Assembly (NCBI GenBank): GCA_002479245.1
Contig: DLMG01000127.1
Span: 1-11,088, forward strand
Length of the DNA: 11,088 bases
Source of the DNA: Verrucomicrobia subdivision 3 bacterium UBA7542
GTDB taxonomy: Bacteria > Verrucomicrobiota > Verrucomicrobiia > Limisphaerales > UBA11358
Direction of reading: 5' to 3'
The notes beneath the pieces are model-generated. The model had not been told where the DNA came from and made no database searches. It saw only the letters and a list, made by a program, of their open reading frames with translations. Within the stretch, counting starts at the first letter, position 1; each line of letters opens with the position of its first letter. Both the position numbers and the translations under genes were made by a program. Positions 3,174 through 11,069 of the stretch are shown in pieces.

Positions 3174-3770
3174 TTAATTCGCGTATTTAACGCCGCAACC
3201 GTAGGGCTTGGTCTGGCTCACCTCAATCGGTTTGCCGGCCATCAGGGCATCCACGGCCTCGCGGACATAGTTGCGCGCGGTGTGTGGGTCATGCTGCGGA
3301 TCGGGTTTGTTGTCAATCGCGCCCTGATAAACCAGCACACCGTTCTTATCAATCACATACATGTCCGGCGTGGTTTTCATGTCGTAGAGATGGCCAACCG
3401 CGCCGGAACTGTCATCAATCCAGGCTGTCGCAATGATTTTTTTGTCGGCGATTTCCTGTTTGGCCTGGTCGGGTGTGCGATGGCTGGGATTATTGGGGTT
3501 CACCGAATTGACGATGAGCCACACGACGCCCTTGGCGGCCATGTCTTTTTCCAACTCCTGCATCGCGCCGGTCTTGTATTGGTTGTTACAAAACGGGCAG
3601 TCGGAGTTGTAGGATTCCAGCACGACAATCTTGCCCTTGTAATCGCTGAGCTTGATTGCCTTGCCGTTGATGTCCGTGGCCGTGAAATCCGGGGCGGTTT
3701 TGCTGATTTCGGTGGCCAGCGCGGCGGAAACCAGTGTCATTGCCGTCAATAATACAAATGCTCTTTTCAT
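3174..3770 (-). CDS. Secreted AhpC/TSA-type redoxin (thiol peroxidase or thiol-disulfide protein)
   Basis: A 198-residue thioredoxin-fold protein of the AhpC/TSA superfamily. Residues 1-19 (MKRAFVLLTAMTLVSAALA) form a signal peptide with an ALA-T cleavage site, so it acts outside the cytoplasm. Family elements follow: APDFTATDINGK (26-37), the redox motif SDCPFC (C58, C61), KTTPDMYVIDKNGVLVYQG and a conserved-looking C-terminal YGCGVKY with a third cysteine, C192. The CPFC pair suggests disulfide exchange, with electrons possibly supplied by the DsbD-like reductase encoded just upstream on the same strand (inference). Start at 3770 is chosen because it begins the signal peptide; 13 more in-frame codons upstream look non-coding and cover the promoter-to-start region. 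A promoter-like pair lies at 3808-3835. No Shine-Dalgarno is seen. Confidence 0.87.
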   Translation of the reverse strand: MKRAFVLLTAMTLVSAALATEISKTAPDFTATDINGKAIKLSDYKGKIVVLESYNSDCPFCNNQYKTGAMQELEKDMAAKGVVWLIVNSVNPNNPSHRTPDQAKQEIADKKIIATAWIDDSSGAVGHLYDMKTTPDMYVIDKNGVLVYQGAIDNKPDPQHDPHTARNYVREAVDALMAGKPIEVSQTKPYGCGVKYAN

Positions 3771-3807
3771 AGGTTTAGAATTATTAATTGTTTGGTTTAG
3801 AGACACC

Positions 3808-3835
3808 AATCTAGGCGGTTTCGTTCAAAAGTCAA
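3808..3835 (-). promoter_or_regulatory. Putative sigma-70-type promoter for the redoxin gene
   Basis: On the minus strand TTGACT (3835-3830) and TAGATT (3813-3808) are separated by 16 nt and resemble the -35 and -10 hexamers (5/6 and 4/6 matches to consensus). Transcription would begin near 3800, giving a leader of about 30 nt before the ATG at 3770. This would let the redoxin be expressed independently of dsbD. Confidence 0.42.
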
Positions 3836-3907: not shown

Positions 3908-3918
3908 AATACAATCCG

Positions 3919-3981
3919 TCACCGCGCCGCGCGGTCGAGGGCGTCGAGCACGATACCCAGTGTCAAAACCTCCGGCAAAAC
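3919..3981 (-). pseudogene. Duplicated 3' end of dsbD (about 20 codons)
   Basis: Read on the minus strand, this segment gives VLPEVLTLGIVLDALDRAAR and a TGA stop. It matches the real dsbD C-terminus (VLPEILTPGIVLDALDRAAR, 4053 onward) with only two substitutions. On the plus strand it lies 134 nt to the left of the true gene end. The shared 46 nt around the stop (up to about 3954) are identical, while the more internal codons have several changes. With the R3 repeat it forms a roughly 132-nt unit repeated twice. It has no start and cannot be a gene. It is a partial tandem duplication or the trace of recombination with a lost paralogue. Confidence 0.8.
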
Positions 3982-3984
3982 AAG

Positions 3985-4040
3985 GTGGCACAGGCCTCTG
4001 GCCTGTGTTTTGGAGTCACAGACGTGGACGTCTGTGCCAC
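3985..4040. repeat. Palindromic interspersed repeat family R3, copy 2
   Basis: It has the same layout as copy 1, 132 nt further on. The hairpins are CACAGGCC-TCT-GGCCTGTG (3989-4007) and CACAGACG-TGGA-CGTCTGTG (4017-4036). Compared with copy 1, the second stem has a paired change (G-C to A-T) that preserves pairing, and the loop TGGA is unchanged. It ends 13 nt past the dsbD stop and could act as its transcript end. Confidence 0.85.
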
Positions 4041-4052
4041 AAATACAATCCG

Positions 4053-6203
4053 TCACCGCGCCGCGCGGTCGAGGGCGTCGAGCACGATGCCCGGTGTCAG
4101 AATTTCGGGCAGGACGATTGGCGGCGCGGCGGGGTCCCGGGGATAAACCAAAACCAGCGGCACGCCGGCGCGGCTGAAGCGGTTCAATTCGGTCGTGATA
4201 TTGTCGGGGAATCGCGTGTAATCGCCGAGCAGGGCGACGGCGTTCATGGACTTGAGCTTCGCGCGCACGGACGGGATTTCGATGCTGGTCTTTTTGTTGA
4301 CTTGGCAGTTAACGCACCAGTCTGCGGTGAAATCCACAAACACAGGCCGGCCTGCGGCTTGTGCCTTGGCCACCGCTGCGGTGCTCCACGAATGCCACTC
4401 AATTTGATCCGGTGTCTGGCAAAAAGCATAAGTTCCAATTCCAACAGCAAGAAGAATACTGACGATCCTCGCCAGTCCGCGGCATTTTGTTCCTCTCTGT
4501 ACGAACTCGCCCCAAATCCAAGCCGCAAGGCCCAAGGCAACGAGGAACAATCCAAACCAAAGTGTACGGCTTTTGTCGAAATTCCCGGCTGCCAGCAGGA
4601 ACAACCACACAGCAGTGGCCAGCATCGGGAAACCCATGGCGATTTTGAATTTTTCCATCCACGCGCCGGGTTTGGGCAGAAATTTCAGCCACGCCGGATT
4701 CCAGCTCAACACAACGTACGGCGCGGCGAGTCCGACACCGACAGCGAGAAACATCATCAGAATCACCGGCGCTGTCTCCCTGAATGCGAAGCCGAGTGCC
4801 GTGGCCAGAACAGGTGCAGTGCAAGATGTAGCGAGCACCGTTGTTAATAGGCCGTTGAAAAATGCGCCCGCCGCGCCATGCTTCGACGCCAGTCCGCCCG
4901 CCGCGTCGAGCGCGCGTCCGCCAAGCGTGACTTCAAATACGCCGAATAGATTCAGCGCCACGAGCGTGACGAGCGTGGTGAGGCAAACGACAAAAACCGG
5001 GCTGCCAAACTGCATGCCCCAGCCGGCCCGGTGCCCGGCAGCCTTGACGCCGATGACGATGGCTGCGAGCGCGAGAAACGACACCAGCACGCCGAGCGCG
5101 TAAACAAGGCCGAGTTTGCGCACGTGCCGCGGGTCACTTCTGGATTCGCCGACAAAGCCGAGAATTTTCAGCGCGATGACCGGCAGCACGCACGGCATGA
5201 TGTTCAGAATCAATCCGCCGATGAAGGCGTAGAGCAGCATTTTCCAGAGCGGCTGTGAAAGTGGGGCAGGCATCTTGCCTGCTTGGACAGGCTGGAAGCC
5301 CGTCCCACTCTCCGGCGGCGATTGCGCGGACATTGTTTCACCGGCGGGCGCTTGGTCGCTGACGGGCATTTTGACTTCAAATCCCTCGCGCGAATTACTC
5401 ATTTGCAAAACCAACACGCCAGAAATTTCCTTTGGCCAATCGCCGGAAAATTTTTTTACAGCCTTGCGAAGGCAAATGTCGGCGGAATAGGCGGAAATGA
5501 TTTCCGTCGCAGCTTGAACTTCAAAGTTGTCGCTGGTGTTTGGAAAAAAATCTACCGAGGCAAATTTTATATTTTTGTCAGCGCCGCCCCGCCAGTTGCT
5601 CATGATAAATGATCGTGTGTCATCGTTAGTCACGTTTTCCCACCATGCTTGAAATTGATAAAAGCCGTTGGTTTGCGGCACCTTGCTTTTCCACGATTCA
5701 ATGAGCGCGGCGTCGGCGGACGCTTTGGTTTGGTCGCTGATGTTGAGGGTGGCTTCGACGTTGCCATTGCCGGGGATGCAGGCTGCCTTGCATTCGAGCC
5801 AGGAAACCTTGGCCTTCAAATCGAGCGGGCCGGGCTTCAAATCGGCGGCGAGCTTGAGCGGCACGAGCAGGACAACCTCGTCGTCGTAACCGTAGGTGGT
5901 GACTTCGACCGGCGGCAATTTTTCCGGGAGCGGCCATTGGATTTCGCCGGCGGTGACGCCGGGCGGCAATTGCCATTCGATTTTGGTGGCGTAGCCGGCA
6001 GCACCGGGATTTTTCCAGTAGGTGTGCCAGCCCGGCTCCATTTTCAAATCCACGCCGGCCAGCACAGTGTCGCCGGGACGCGCGGTGTCGGCGGACAATA
6101 TCAGCCGCGCCTGCGTGTGGGCTGCGCTGGCGGTGAGGGCCGCGAGGCAAACCCAGCCTGCCAGAATGGTTCCGATGCGTCGCACAGGGATTAGATGCCA
6201 CAT
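4053..6203 (-). CDS. dsbD: DsbD/ScsB-family transmembrane thiol-disulfide reductase
   Basis: A 716-residue inner-membrane protein that would carry electrons from cytoplasmic thioredoxin to extracytoplasmic thiol proteins. Residues 1-28 are a signal peptide. The N-terminal beta-rich domain (about 30-290) carries C138 and C142 (WLECKAACIPG), like ScsB/DsbD-alpha domains. The membrane domain (about 320-590) has the paired transmembrane cysteines C338 (NIMPCVLPV) and C461 (ATSCTAPVLA) and about eight hydrophobic helices. The C-terminal thioredoxin-like domain has the active site DWCVNC (C630, C633). All three cysteine pairs are present, so it looks functional. ATG 6203 is used; GTG at codon 7 is an alternative. 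Residues 299-315 (SGTGFQPVQAGKMPAPL) are encoded by an inserted palindromic repeat in the linker before the first helix. The redoxin gene downstream on the same strand is a possible electron acceptor. Confidence 0.92.
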   Translation of the reverse strand: MWHLIPVRRIGTILAGWVCLAALTASAAHTQARLILSADTARPGDTVLAGVDLKMEPGWHTYWKNPGAAGYATKIEWQLPPGVTAGEIQWPLPEKLPPVEVTTYGYDDEVVLLVPLKLAADLKPGPLDLKAKVSWLECKAACIPGNGNVEATLNISDQTKASADAALIESWKSKVPQTNGFYQFQAWWENVTNDDTRSFIMSNWRGGADKNIKFASVDFFPNTSDNFEVQAATEIISAYSADICLRKAVKKFSGDWPKEISGVLVLQMSNSREGFEVKMPVSDQAPAGETMSAQSPPESGTGFQPVQAGKMPAPLSQPLWKMLLYAFIGGLILNIMPCVLPVIALKILGFVGESRSDPRHVRKLGLVYALGVLVSFLALAAIVIGVKAAGHRAGWGMQFGSPVFVVCLTTLVTLVALNLFGVFEVTLGGRALDAAGGLASKHGAAGAFFNGLLTTVLATSCTAPVLATALGFAFRETAPVILMMFLAVGVGLAAPYVVLSWNPAWLKFLPKPGAWMEKFKIAMGFPMLATAVWLFLLAAGNFDKSRTLWFGLFLVALGLAAWIWGEFVQRGTKCRGLARIVSILLAVGIGTYAFCQTPDQIEWHSWSTAAVAKAQAAGRPVFVDFTADWCVNCQVNKKTSIEIPSVRAKLKSMNAVALLGDYTRFPDNITTELNRFSRAGVPLVLVYPRDPAAPPIVLPEILTPGIVLDALDRAAR
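5261..5308. repeat. Degenerate R3 palindromic repeat inside dsbD
   Basis: GTGGGGCAGGC at the left end and GCCCGTCCCAC at the right end pair at 9 of 11 positions. Inside are the hairpins GCAGGC-ATCTT-GCCTGC and GGACAGGCT-GGA-AGCCCGTCC (one mismatch). The layout matches the R3 copies at 3853 and 3985. The insertion keeps the dsbD frame and adds about 16 residues to an interdomain linker. Confidence 0.75.
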
Positions 6204-7016: not shown

Positions 7017-7043
7017 TTGACAGGCCACGACCCGCTGTAATGC
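7017..7043 (+). promoter_or_regulatory. Possible promoter of the selenoprotein operon
   Basis: TTGACA at 7017-7022 is a perfect -35 hexamer, 48 nt before the proposed ATG at 7070. The -10 match is poor (TAATGC at 7038 with 15-nt spacing, or TGTAAT at 7036 with 13). It is reported because there is no other good candidate in the short gap after the preceding stop at 6981. Confidence 0.3.
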
Positions 7044-7069
7044 CAATCACGGCGACAAACTGGATAACC

Positions 7070-9172
7070 ATGAGTTCGGCGCTGAAAGAAATCATCCGGT
7101 CAGGCGTGGTCTTTTTGGGTGTGTTTCTCTTCGGAGCGAGCTTCATGGTCAATGCCGCCTCCGGCGGCGAAGCGACGGCTGCCGCGAATTCTCAATCCGG
7201 ACAGATTCAAACAGCCCATCTCGATTATAGCGAGGTCGGGTATGGCTTAATTAACTGCGGCCTCCCGGTTGTCAATCGATCCACCCCGTTCACAAAGGAA
7301 CCGGCGTTCGCCGGGAACAAAGTTGTGCGCGGCACCTTCCAGCCCGGCGGCAGCGACAGCAATTCAATCGCTTTTGCCTGGGACCGAGCCGCCGGAAAAC
7401 TTTACCTCGACCTCAATCACAACCAGGATTTGACCGACGATCCCTCCGGCGTTTTTTTGGCGCGCACAGCGAGGACGGTTTATTATCAGACGTTCACGAA
7501 CATCCACCTGCTTTTCAACACCGCATCCGGCAAATGCCAGGTGCTGGCGGACATCACCTTCTATGACAACCTTCCGCGACCGAGTTGCAACCTCGCGTTG
7601 CGCTCGTTCTGGCAGGGCAAGGTGACGTTGCAAGGACAGGACTGGCAGGTGGGCATCGTCCAAAATGGCTTGAACCAATCGGGTTCGTTCGAGAACGGCC
7701 GGTTGCTGCTGCGTCCCTGGGAAAAACGAAACCAGTCATTCAACACCTACGATGGTTCGCTCGTCACCGTTCCCTTTTCACGGAAACTTTTTGTTGACGG
7801 CCACGCCTATCAACTGGACCTGGTGGCCAGACCGCAGGACGGCGAAGCGAAGCCCGCCCTCCAATTCACGGAACAAACCGTCCCGCTTGGCGAATTGAAA
7901 ATCGCCGGCAAATTTATTCAACGGCTTGTCTTGTCGGGCGGACCGTATCTCGTGGTGCTCGATCAACCGGCAGCCAGCGTAAAAGTCCCGACCGGCAGCT
8001 ACAACCGACCCGACATCCTGCTGGAACAAAATGGCGCCGAGGCCTTCTGCAATCCCGGCCTAACGCTAGTTGGCTGGCGGATTTCCGTGGATGACAAGAC
8101 CCCGGCGGTGTTGGACGCGGGCGGGCCGTTGACCAATTCCGTCACTGCCAGCCGTCACGGGCGGGATTTGCGCCTTGATTACCGACTGGTTGGTGCGGGC
8201 GGCGAAACCTACCAACTGGCAAATCAAAATCGCTCCCAGCCGCCGGAGTTCGCGGTGTACAAGGGCGACAGGAAAATCGTGTCGGGCAAATTCGAATTTG
8301 GCTGAGGCGGCACCTGTTCGCACTCATGGCGAGTGCCTCTCACGTCCGCCGGTGAACTGAAGATCGTGGCCGTTTCCGATCTCGGAGGCCTCGGTGCGAA
8401 GGAAGGCGATCCGGTCAGTTACCATTGGACGGTCCCCAGTCTCATCCCTTCATTTCTGCCGTGGCTGGCGGTTTTGCTGCTGTTATTGACCAAGCCAAAC
8501 CGTTGCGGCCGGGCATGGTGGATCTGGCTGCCCCTCGGATGTGTGGCGGCCATGGAACAATTGTCGCAGTCAGCCTTTGAATTTCTGCCCTCGGGCACGG
8601 CAGACATGTTTCTTGAGATGGCGGGTTCGCTGGCCTTTGGCGTTGCCGCCGTCTGGCTGCTGGCGCACCAACTGGCGCGCAGCCATCGGCTCGTCACTTT
8701 CCTGTGCCTCGCGCCCACCTTGGCGGGCTTCAGCCTTTTCAGTTTTTTGGTCAGACAGGATTGGACCGTGGACGGGGCCTCCCTGGTATTGGTGATGCTG
8801 GTTCCGCTGGCCCTCAGCGTTCTTGTGGTTGCGCTGGCCATCTTTTTAGCCGGGCTGGCCTGCCGGGGTCGCTATCGTCCCTTGGGGCTGTACCTCTGGA
8901 TCTTCCTGTCACTGCTGGCGCTTTGGCTGGTGATTCTCACACCGGTCTTTGCCTTCGCAATGATTGTTTCGGGTGGTCGGTTGCCGTGGCAGGAATTCTT
9001 CGTCGTGGTTTTGGTTCTGACGGCAGCCGGGTTCGTCACGCTGTTCCCGTTCCTGGTTCTGTCTTCCGCCAACTCACTTTTCCGCGAACGGCTCAAGGCG
9101 TTGCTGCACGTGAAACCGGAGGCCCCGCCGCCACTGAATGCGCCTTTGCCCGACGACCAATTGAAAGCTTGA
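7070..9172 (+). CDS. Predicted secreted/membrane selenoprotein with in-frame UGA (Sec412), unknown function
   Basis: Conventional reading gives two genes: 7070-8305, stopping at TGA after KFEFG, and 8333-9172. Both are in the same frame with no other stop between them. Reading the TGA at 8303-8305 as selenocysteine gives one 700-residue protein. Residues 1-31 look like a signal sequence. Residues 60-411 form a beta-rich extracytoplasmic domain with an EF-hand-like loop DLNHNQDLTDD (114-124). Then come U412-GGTC416 and SHSWRVP, then about six or seven transmembrane helices from about residue 457 and a Pro-rich tail. The N-terminal domain is paralogous to the next gene. ATG 7070 begins the signal sequence; ATG 7040 is an alternative. 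No Shine-Dalgarno is clear. Function is unknown; the U-x3-C pair suggests redox or metal binding. If the TGA is a true stop, a secreted protein and an unusual headless membrane protein result. Confidence 0.62.
8306..8350 (+). promoter_or_regulatory. Candidate bacterial SECIS stem-loop 1
   Basis: Directly after the TGA, GCACTC (8320-8325) pairs with GAGTGC (8331-8336) around the loop ATGGC (8326-8330); the loop starts 20 nt after the TGA. GGCGG (8306-8310) could pair with CCGCC (8346-8350) as a lower stem. Distance and loop size fit bacterial SECIS rules (about 16-37 nt; 3-14 nt). The loop's first G is its third base, not the first or second as usual. Confidence 0.55.
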
Positions 9173-9203: not shown

Positions 9204-10481
9204 ATGAAACTTTCCAGAAAATTGATTCTGGCCGGAATGGTTCTCGCCGGCACCGCGTTCGCGCAAACCGAGCAGTGGCTGGAATACCATACCAGCGCCG
9301 AGGGCCGCGCCTACCACCAGATGGAACTGACCACCAATCCGCCACCCGGCGTCGCCCTGCCCAAGCTGAACGCGCCGCCCTATTTCGCGCGCTGGTCCAC
9401 GCCGATGGACCCCGCCGGCGGCCGCTGGCTCTGCTTCGACCGCACACGCAAGTCCGGGCCGTATGACCGGCTGTACATTGACAGCAACGGCAATGGCCGG
9501 CTGGACGACAAAACGCCCATCCAGGCGCGACTGGATTCCTACTTCGCCTTTTTTCCGCCGGCCCCCGTTGTTTTCAAGGGCGAGGACGGGCCGATCACCT
9601 ATCATCTCGTGTTCCGGTTCTATCAATACGAAAAGAGTCCCGCGCAATTGCTGGCATCGTCCGCCGGCTGGTATGAAGGCGTGGTGAATTTCGACGGCGT
9701 GAAAAAACGCATCCAACTGATTGACGGCAACGTCAACGGCACGTTTAACGACGTCGCACCGGATCCTTATGACAGCGACCGCGTCCAGGTCGAGGGCGAC
9801 AAGACCGGCGAACGTTTTTTGGGCAAAATGCTGGAAGTGGACGGAAAGCTTTTCCGGATCGAAGCCGCCCGCGACGGCGCGTTCGTCAAGGTGCAAAAGG
9901 TCCCGCCCGGCGGGATCACGCTCGGCCAGGTGCGCGTGCCGGAAAACATTTCCGAATTCGCCGCGTTCGGCGGGAACGGCCATTTCGTGCGCCAGCCGGT
10001 GAACGGCGAATTCACCCTGCCGGCGGGCAATTACCGGATCTTTCGCTGGACGATCAATCGCAAGGATGAAAAAGGCGCGGCGTGGACGCTGTCCGGCTAT
10101 AATTTCCCCAAAACCGCCGGGTTCGAGGTCGCTGCCGACAAAACTGCCGTGCTGGAAATCGGCGAGCCGGTGCAAGCCGTGCTCAAGGCGACCGAGAACC
10201 CCAACCGCCAGGTCGCCTTCAACCTCAGTTTCGTGGGGCAACAGAAGGAATCCATCGAGATGCTGCGTGACGGGCAGCGCCCGCGCGGGCCGAAATTGAT
10301 GCTGGCCAATGCCGACGGGACGTTGTGTTATACGAACACGTTCGAGTTTGGGTGAGGCGGCGTTTGTTCGCTCTCATGGCGGGAGCCCAAAAATGTTCAG
10401 CGTCCGTTGGTTGGCAACATCAAAATTTTCAGCCCGTTCCAGGTGCTGACGAGTCCGTTGACGCTCGAAGCAAAAAAATAA
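9204..10481 (+). CDS. Predicted secreted selenoprotein with in-frame UGA (Sec384), paralogue of the preceding gene
   Basis: Conventional reading stops at TGA 10353-10355 after TNTFEFG (383 residues). The frame continues as GGVCSLSWREP and then about 30 further residues to TAA at 10479-10481, giving 425 residues with U384 and C388. Residues 1-20 (MKLSRKLILAGMVLAGTAFA) are a signal peptide. Two calcium-type loops are visible: DSNGNGRLDD (93-102) and DGNVNGTFND (174-183). The segment ITLGQVRVPENISEF parallels VPLGELKIAGKFIQR in the upstream paralogue. This copy lacks the membrane domain and ends in a hydrophilic tail, so it should be periplasmic or secreted. It begins 31 nt after the previous gene, and its extended end leaves only 12 nt to the next, consistent with one operon. 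Function is unknown; this is not a recognised enzyme. If TGA is a stop, the tail is lost. Confidence 0.65.
10356..10386 (+). promoter_or_regulatory. Candidate bacterial SECIS stem-loop 2
   Basis: GCTCTC (10370-10375) pairs with GGGAGC (10381-10386), including one T-G wobble, around the loop ATGGC (10376-10380). The loop starts 20 nt after the TGA, exactly as in stem-loop 1. The third base pair is A-T there and T-A here, so the stem is preserved by a double change. Confidence 0.55.
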
Positions 10482-10493
10482 TTTGATCATCGC

Positions 10494-11069
10494 ATGAAAA
10501 CGACACGGCAATTCCTTCTGGTTTCTGCCGCTTTGGTGTTTTTGGGCGTCAGCACGCACGCCCAGACGCTGGAACGGCTACGGACCATTATTCAAAAAGC
10601 GCCGGATACCGGCACAAATGCCGGCGCGCAAAAACTCAACTGTTCCGGGACGGTCACCGACACCGCCGGCAGCCCCCTTGCCGGCGCGACGGTGGAGTAT
10701 TGGCGTTATGAGGGAAATCCGTTTCTGGCAAATCCTCTGGAATTGAAAAAACAAATCACCACGGGCACCAACGGCGCTTTTGAATTCCCGGCGTCGCGGG
10801 CGTCGGGATACCTGCTGGCGCGAAAACCGGGACTGGCCCCGGCCTGGAAACAGTTGGGCCAGCCGTTTAATTCCGTCGGCGAGACGGAAGAACGTTTGGT
10901 GCTGACTCCGCCGGCGCCGCTGGCGGGCGTGGTGGTGGACGAAGCGGAGGAATTGCGTCAGATGCGTGAGCACGCCGCGGAGCAGGCTGCGCTGTTCGGC
11001 ATCGGCAGCGACGACGAAACTGATTCTGTCGAACTGCTCACACCGCACGGCAAGCAAGCCGATCACTAA
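10494..11069 (+). CDS. Secreted protein with carboxypeptidase-regulatory-like domain, atypical C-terminus
   Basis: A 191-residue exported protein. MKTTRQFLLVSAALVFLGVSTHA is a signal peptide (cleavage before Q24). Residues about 47-147 form a beta-sandwich of the CarboxypepD_reg/SpaA-like type: LNCSGTVTDTAGSPLAGATVEYWRY, then TTGTNGAFEFPASRASGYLLARKPG, then ERLVLTPPAPLAGVVVDE, where a second domain of this type would normally begin. It is instead replaced by an acidic helical tail, EELRQMREHAAEQAALFGIG, ending at TAA. The tail does not look like this fold, so the gene may be truncated and fused to foreign sequence. It starts 12 nt after the extended end of the preceding selenoprotein candidate and is probably the third gene of the same operon. 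Such domains usually serve as surface or structural modules; no catalytic motif is seen. Confidence 0.72.
   Translation: MKTTRQFLLVSAALVFLGVSTHAQTLERLRTIIQKAPDTGTNAGAQKLNCSGTVTDTAGSPLAGATVEYWRYEGNPFLANPLELKKQITTGTNGAFEFPASRASGYLLARKPGLAPAWKQLGQPFNSVGETEERLVLTPPAPLAGVVVDEAEELRQMREHAAEQAALFGIGSDDETDSVELLTPHGKQADH

Follow-up and report, generated by a model that had tools for sequence, protein, structure and literature searches.

Two adjacent genes on the forward strand of the window, that is, of the whole stretch of 11,088 nucleotides analysed here, very probably form a tandem selenoprotein pair. We put a rough probability of 0.88 on the reading that the UGAs at 8303 and 10353 are decoded as selenocysteine (Sec) by means of hairpins located just behind them, and that the Sec of both proteins sits in an extracytoplasmic immunoglobulin-like (Ig-like) β-sandwich. 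Directly observed are the in-frame UGA, a covarying hairpin, purifying selection past the UGA, the Sec machinery and a total of 75 sites in two phyla. The two genes have the following features:

7040..9172, + strand: gene 1, predicted selenoprotein of the long type, 710 aa, Sec422
7409..7441, + strand: calcium-loop-like stretch DLNHNQDLTDD of gene 1
8303..8305, + strand: predicted Sec codon of gene 1, an in-frame TGA
8320..8336, + strand: predicted bacterial SECIS hairpin of gene 1, stem 8320-8325/8331-8336, loop 8326-8330 (ATGGC)
8441..9106, + strand: stretch of gene 1 encoding its C-terminal helices (residues 468-689, from the secondary structure of the AlphaFold model), predicted to be a membrane domain
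9204..10481, + strand: gene 2, predicted selenoprotein of the short type with a signal-peptide-like start, 425 aa, Sec384
9480..9509, + strand: calcium-loop-like stretch DSNGNGRLDD of gene 2
9723..9752, + strand: second calcium-loop-like stretch of gene 2, DGNVNGTFND
10353..10355, + strand: predicted Sec codon of gene 2, an in-frame TGA (FEFG-U-GGVCSLSWREP)
10370..10386, + strand: predicted SECIS hairpin of gene 2, stem 10370-10375/10381-10386 (GCTCTC/GGGAGC), loop ATGGC

Around its TGA, gene 1 reads AAA TTC GAA TTT GGC TGA GGC GGC ACC TGT TCG CAC TCA TGG CGA GTG CCT, which translates into KFEFG, the TGA and GGTCSHSWRVP. The first-pass annotation had described gene 1 as a probable selenoprotein gene with an open frame beyond the TGA at 8303-8305, and this frame indeed continues to the TGA at 9170-9172; the chance of 288 open codons past a stop is approximately 3e-5 at the base composition of the window. 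A mechanical list of open reading frames splits the gene in two, with the second piece starting from GTG 8333 within the hairpin, as had been stated. The start codon is uncertain (ATG 7040 or ATG 7070): residue 412, given earlier for the site, corresponds to a start at ATG 7070, and a start at ATG 7040 places the site at residue 422. The predicted protein is composed of an N-terminal hydrophobic segment, a β-rich ectodomain, the Sec β-sandwich and about seven C-terminal helices. Both parts of the fusion proposed in the first-pass annotation, the calcium-loop-like stretch DLNHNQDLTDD and the C-terminal helices, were found, and by its resemblance to calcium loops the former may bind calcium. The TGA and the hairpin of gene 1 are real, and judged from the sequence its reading as a selenoprotein gene is very likely right, but this interpretation was too small, since it overlooked the second gene in tandem and the presence of at least five family members in the genome.

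Gene 2 ends at the TAA 10479-10481, 41 codons separating its TGA from this TAA. The two proteins are distant paralogues, 24% identical where they align (E 1e-12). Such an arrangement recurs in the family: a second member is located directly downstream of seven of the 12 long members (assigned by length after Sec and having flanks), namely those of the window, L027, L187, L188, L202, L203 and L230. The second member in L230 is of the gene 2 type with a long extension. Some of the gene-2-type members in L189, L190, L192 and L230 extend 263-569 residues past Sec, and a Laminin_G_3 domain sits in the extension of the L192 member.

To find relatives, a sample of 384 genomes of the class was searched with gene 2, and 14 of them matched. 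Exactly one TGA is read in 24 of the 28 match rows, the other four being pieces off the site or the weak G205 match. An alignment of Sec segments (A1) was used for the phylum (Verrucomicrobiota) and for a second phylum, that of G645, labelled Planctomycetota bacterium. Among 387 genomes of the phylum 11 matched (18 of 19 rows with one TGA, one of these, in G115, being spurious), and among 294 genomes of the second phylum 25 matched (44 of 45 rows with one TGA, the weakest near E 0.001). A search of nine arbitrary genomes, run with no positive control, gave no family match. The stop codon in the match rows is always TGA, never TAA or TAG. The first-pass annotation had turned to homologues for a check of the site, and in the match rows spanning it they have the TGA aligned there, with the exception of two sense-codon paralogues. 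One of 76 extracted sites was dropped, leaving 75 distinct sites in two phyla (the two of the window and 73 further ones).

These sites share the motif [FY]G-U-G-G-x-C-x-x-S-W-R-x-P. The glycines are conserved at 73 (G-1), 68 (G+1) and 61 (G+2) of the 75 sites, followed downstream by S+7 (56), W+8 (58), R+9 (51) and P+11 (64). The U-x3-C motif proposed for gene 1 is present at 61 of 75 sites; at the remaining 14 Cys+4 is absent, and the U and mostly the flanking glycines are retained.

The stem of 6 bp with the loop ATGGC was confirmed behind the TGA of gene 1, with the claimed distance of 20 nt from TGA to loop. Its arms are GCACTC and GAGTGC, and the hairpin alone (nt 17-35) has a free energy of -9.1 kcal/mol; the corresponding value for gene 2 is -8.4 kcal/mol, again with 20 nt between UGA and loop. 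Both hairpins begin 14 nt downstream of their UGA, and between the two genes both arms are changed with the pairing kept, showing compensatory exchange. In an ungapped alignment of 26 sequences all six pairs form in every sequence (156 cells), and four of the six vary on both sides, whereas slid controls are 28-66% paired. RNAalifold recovers the identical stem unprompted.

Complete pairing in this register (six of six) is seen at 58 of the 75 sites, among which 18 distinct combinations of arms occur. Shuffling of codon columns (500 shuffles) gave a mean of 8.6 such sites (maximum 17), and shuffling of synonymous codons within the same residue (500 shuffles) a mean of 34.6 (maximum 42), both types of shuffle ignoring the kinship of the sequences. 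More sites are fully paired than after synonymous-codon shuffling, so the pairing goes beyond the constraint of the protein sequence. Among the remaining 17 sites, several show a stem that is shifted or longer (L235, for instance, has 8 bp and a 3-nt loop); no convincing hairpin was seen at L218 and L220. A covariance model trained on the 26 sites, which includes coding-sequence signal too, was applied to 26 second-phylum sites outside the training set (loci L222-L241). With a threshold of 15 bits it finds 17 of them, and three of the nine missed sites have partial matches of 11-13 bits. Off-site matches in the second-phylum sources reach up to 13.2 bits; in 356 kb of unrelated sequence (47 loci) there was a single match, of 11.9 bits.

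When single stretches of 42 nt were folded, the consensus stem was not the minimum in either window gene (z -2.56 for gene 1, -0.33 for gene 2). These single folds prefer other structures in both genes, and the case for the hairpin rests on covariation. The consensus for bacterial SECIS elements (bSECIS), as given in the legend of Fig. 2A of PMC13188914, comprises an apical loop of 3-9 nt, a stem of 4-16 bp, a UGA-loop distance of 16-37 nt, a free energy of at most -7.5 kcal/mol and a G within the first two loop positions. By the rules in this form, both window hairpins agree in loop size (5 nt), stem (6 bp), spacing (20 nt) and energy, and the energy rule is satisfied at 56 of 75 sites (nt 14-38). 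The loop G is found in 27 of 58 sites and in neither window loop (ATGGC, with G at positions 3 and 4). An Rfam scan of the window gave nothing at either hairpin and no match near the gathering score.

The hairpin also leaves an imprint on the protein, seen as covariation between Sec+6 and Sec+10 across the 75 sites: Leu+6 is paired with Glu+10 at nine sites, Tyr or His+6 with Val or Ile+10 at 40, and Ala+6 with Gly+10 at nine.

The own genome (assembly of 4.4 Mb in 428 contigs, 69.8% complete) was searched for selA, selB, selC and selD, the genes the first-pass annotation had named for inspection, and all four were found over the curated cut-off (tRNA-Sec 71.4 bits, selB 326, selA 499, selD 340); ARAGORN gives tca (UCA) as the anticodon of the tRNA-Sec. 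Very likely, SelB would bind the hairpin and deliver Sec-tRNA at the UGA. Three more TGA members are encoded in this genome, two on contig C387 together with selA and selB and one on contig C168 together with selC and selD. The end of C168 (L026) and window positions 10365-10465 share 101 identical bases over the end of gene 2 and then diverge, and the genes after this shared stretch are 87% identical over 461 nt. Probably the selC/selD locus carries a second copy of the end of gene 2 that was interrupted in the assembly.

Across the class, selA is over the cut-off in 12 of the 13 genomes with a TGA member (own genome included), and the thirteenth, G239, has selB. For selB the proportion is 11 of 13 member-bearing genomes, compared to 60 of 384 in the whole class sample; G020 and G047 have selA and no selB over the cut-off (three candidates scored). 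In nine congeners without a family member, selA was found in none. In the second phylum, selA is over the cut-off in 21 of 25 matching genomes (all except G703, G826, G924 and G943) compared to 170 of 269 others (191 of 294 overall), the association being weaker because selA is common there. Members share a contig with selA or selB, at a distance of about 12 kb or less, in five of 13 class genomes (G000, G333, G308, G052 and G244) and in at least seven of 25 second-phylum genomes (G665, G684, G937, G672, G845, G779 and G940).

The AlphaFold model of gene 2 (mean pLDDT 92.3, 75 in the Sec-bearing block) is all-β, containing no helix of four or more residues, and strands follow Sec384 at residues 387-393, 402-407 and 414-421. 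Sec is thus predicted to sit in a C-terminal Ig-like β-sandwich, the domain being completed by the strands after the UGA. Read-through would supply these last strands, leaving the domain incomplete without them, and export would place the Sec β-sandwich outside the cytoplasm. In PMC13188914 the majority of characterized bacterial selenoproteins is described as having a thioredoxin-like fold; in contrast to thioredoxin-fold selenoproteins, the gene 2 model lacks the alternating α/β fold at Sec. Macroglobulin- and Ig-like β-sandwiches were compared (E. coli α2-macroglobulin, complement C5, the PorU C-terminal domain and the BsuPI inhibitor 3isy), with 10-11% identity for two of them and Z values within the range expected for a common arrangement, a level of similarity that does not establish homology.

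Foldseek searches with both models gave no match at E ≤ 0.001, and a PDB sequence search with gene 2 was likewise without a match; the fold comparisons hardly reach the N-terminal portions of the two proteins. The window proteins themselves (P0001 and P0002) are matched by no model in Pfam or NCBIfam, NCBIfam (June 2026) has no match to the 26 Sec segments, and among 62 relatives of gene 2 four Pfam families each weakly match one member.

With known bacterial selenoproteins the pair shares the in-frame UGA, the hairpin just downstream, selA, selB, selC and selD and, usually, a nearby Cys. It differs from them in that no Cys homologue was found and that Sec lies in a predicted Ig-like β-sandwich. 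Table 1 of PMC13188914 comprises 119 families and subfamilies, none of which is entered with this motif or with such a UxxxC. Selenoprotein genes are also found side by side with TsoB (NF045694, rhodanese/DsbD fusion-like) and in the Sao and Tso operons, as here. TsoB has a DsbD-like membrane part, which a DsbD neighbour in the window resembles (121 bits, compared to a cut-off of 805); unlike TsoB, this neighbour has no in-frame TGA, and the two new genes match no NCBIfam model.

The neighbourhood of the pair in the window contains the following genes, the first two upstream of gene 1:

3174..3809, - strand: AhpC/TSA-Redoxin (TlpA/ResA-like) thiol protein, a possible partner
4053..6203, - strand: DsbD-type membrane thiol reductant carrier, a possible electron source
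10494..11069, + strand: carboxypeptidase-regulatory-repeat protein, a short copy scoring 29.2 bits and thus below the Pfam cut-off (32.3)

Relatives of the last one recur near family members: at the loci with long flanks, recurrent neighbours are carboxypeptidase-regulatory-repeat proteins (six loci), SelD (five), Fer4_5 proteins (five) and additionally selB or selA. Similar SelD proteins cluster at five family loci; the domain scan was made for the L026 copy (362-2068, on C168 of the own genome), which has a C-terminal carboxymuconolactone decarboxylase/AhpD-like (CMD) domain (PF02627, 43.1 bits). The Fer4_5 membrane ferredoxin-like protein, likewise assigned by a domain scan of the L026 copy (3916-4806), has relatives in L189, L203, L230 and L232, in both phyla, and is a possible electron donor. 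A 2-hydroxyglutaryl-CoA dehydratase D-component (PF06050) is encoded at L197:8885-10150 near a family member and Sec genes, with cluster mates in L224 and L238; the protein at L027:9144-10966 is similar to it by eye. The window also encodes a SET-domain protein (2391-2966, + strand, PF00856, 86.9 bits), a domain less common in bacteria.

Our best guess on function, a tentative one at rather less than even odds, is that the selenol serves as a redox module of the cell envelope paired with Cys+4. The selenol would be a redox nucleophile that usually joins Cys+4 in a selenenylsulfide, and membrane carriers could reduce it again, such as the DsbD/TlpA-like proteins or the Fer4_5 ferredoxin protein encoded close to several members. 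Membrane anchoring of this activity would fall to the long member, and the short member would be a secreted form. A selenenylsulfide cannot be a general step, since 14 of the 75 sites lack Cys+4. For the same reason, Cys+4 being dispensable, we retain another reading of the selenoprotein, which we consider unlikely and below the redox module: Sec may instead be a metal ligand or a covalent sulfur or selenium carrier. The carrier arm of SoxY has the motif GGCGG with the Cys between glycines, and the G-U-G-G loop resembles this glycine-flanked carrier Cys, SoxYZ chains being Ig-like as well. The loss of the partner Cys with retention of the U and mostly of its glycines would fit such a role, as would the weak structural similarity that Foldseek gives between gene 1 and SoxYZ chains (probability 0.66-0.89). 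This similarity is not significant (E 0.07-0.23) and lies in an Ig-like fold common to many proteins, and the motif is an internal loop here and a C-terminal arm in SoxY. The conservation of Cys+4 at 61 sites likewise argues against a ligand or carrier. The 50 VIA matches listed contain no SoxYZ.

A different view would be that the UGA is a true stop, gene 1 then being two genes (the second from GTG 8333), gene 2 ending at FEFG and the hairpin being incidental. The mechanical ORF list agrees with this, and so do the database entries: all 147 fetched proteins (120 listed out of 713, plus eight and 19 from region searches, P0030 being the window's own) end in FEFG, FEYG or MEFG directly ahead of the UGA site. 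The codons past the UGA are, however, conserved as protein. For gene 2, dN/dS past the UGA is 0.079/0.334 (L187) and 0.160/0.559 (L188), compared to 0.167/0.673 and 0.259/1.33 ahead of it; for gene 1 the values are 0.418/1.18 and 0.515/1.57 past the UGA and 0.353/0.855 (L187) ahead of it. By these measures both frames are under purifying selection on both sides of the UGA. In addition, GGxCxxSWRxP spans two phyla behind a stop that is invariably TGA, and the remaining strands would be required to close the predicted domain. We regard termination at these sites as very improbable.

The conserved frame across the stop would equally be expected if the UGA were read through otherwise, by low-level insertion of Trp or another near-cognate amino acid, or if UGA were reassigned to Trp. 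Reassignment is contradicted by the selA, selB and selD matches, which are open without internal stops, and by gene 1 itself, which terminates at a TGA. Plain read-through leaves the covarying hairpin, the link to the Sec machinery and the lack of any member with a Trp codon at the site unexplained, and we give this explanation the same slight chance as a true stop. A sequencing or assembly error, frameshift or pseudogene, for which the fragmented and incomplete assembly could speak, is negligible given the same in-frame TGA at 75 distinct sites in many genomes and a frame that is unbroken and under purifying selection on both sides. Insertion of Sec at both UGAs is the reading we prefer.

Most selenoprotein families have Cys homologues, and the first-pass annotation had expected homologues with Cys at the Sec position. 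None was found: site-region searches of about 5.8 billion proteins, which reach proteins sharing a five-residue word with the query, returned 35 and 19 proteins, aligned only up to the UGA and with no Cys version among them, and a loose Cys pattern in genome contigs gave chance-like pieces among the matches listed. The two sense-codon paralogues of the second phylum, in G703 (38.8 bits) and G888 (4.9 bits, with flanks close to those of its neighbour), have no Cys at the site, and a UGA paralogue lies beside each on the same contig. In place of the Sec loop, the sense-codon paralogues at L222 (minus strand) and L236 have MEYEYGGRFGHCGYWW and MLSYERSDARGFIWSASW, without Cys at the site. Because the region searches gave no Cys form and the sense-codon paralogues lack Cys at the site, the family is likely Sec-only, as far as can be judged from sequence comparison.

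A literature search, with subscription papers, preprints and supplementary tables (such as the candidate table of PMC4807772) outside its scope, found no description of the family. The genetic mechanism is known; the protein family, the fold context of its Sec and its apparent Sec-only nature look new.

Selenoproteins are usually found via Cys homologues or thioredoxin-like motifs, and this family would escape searches of both kinds, a possible explanation for the hundreds of its proteins that databases contain in truncated form. Its recognition would bring several selenoproteins into the genomes of two phyla in one step, and its hairpins, as a clean set of covarying SECIS elements, could help to refine prediction models. 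With this family one could also ask which functions require selenium itself, here within a fold that is not known for redox chemistry. On a broader view, to which we give about an even chance, it may represent a widespread Sec-only superfamily of the cell envelope in which sulfur is unable to replace selenium, occurring as a two-gene operon in two phyla, closely linked to Sec genes and perhaps a main reason why these bacteria keep the Sec code.
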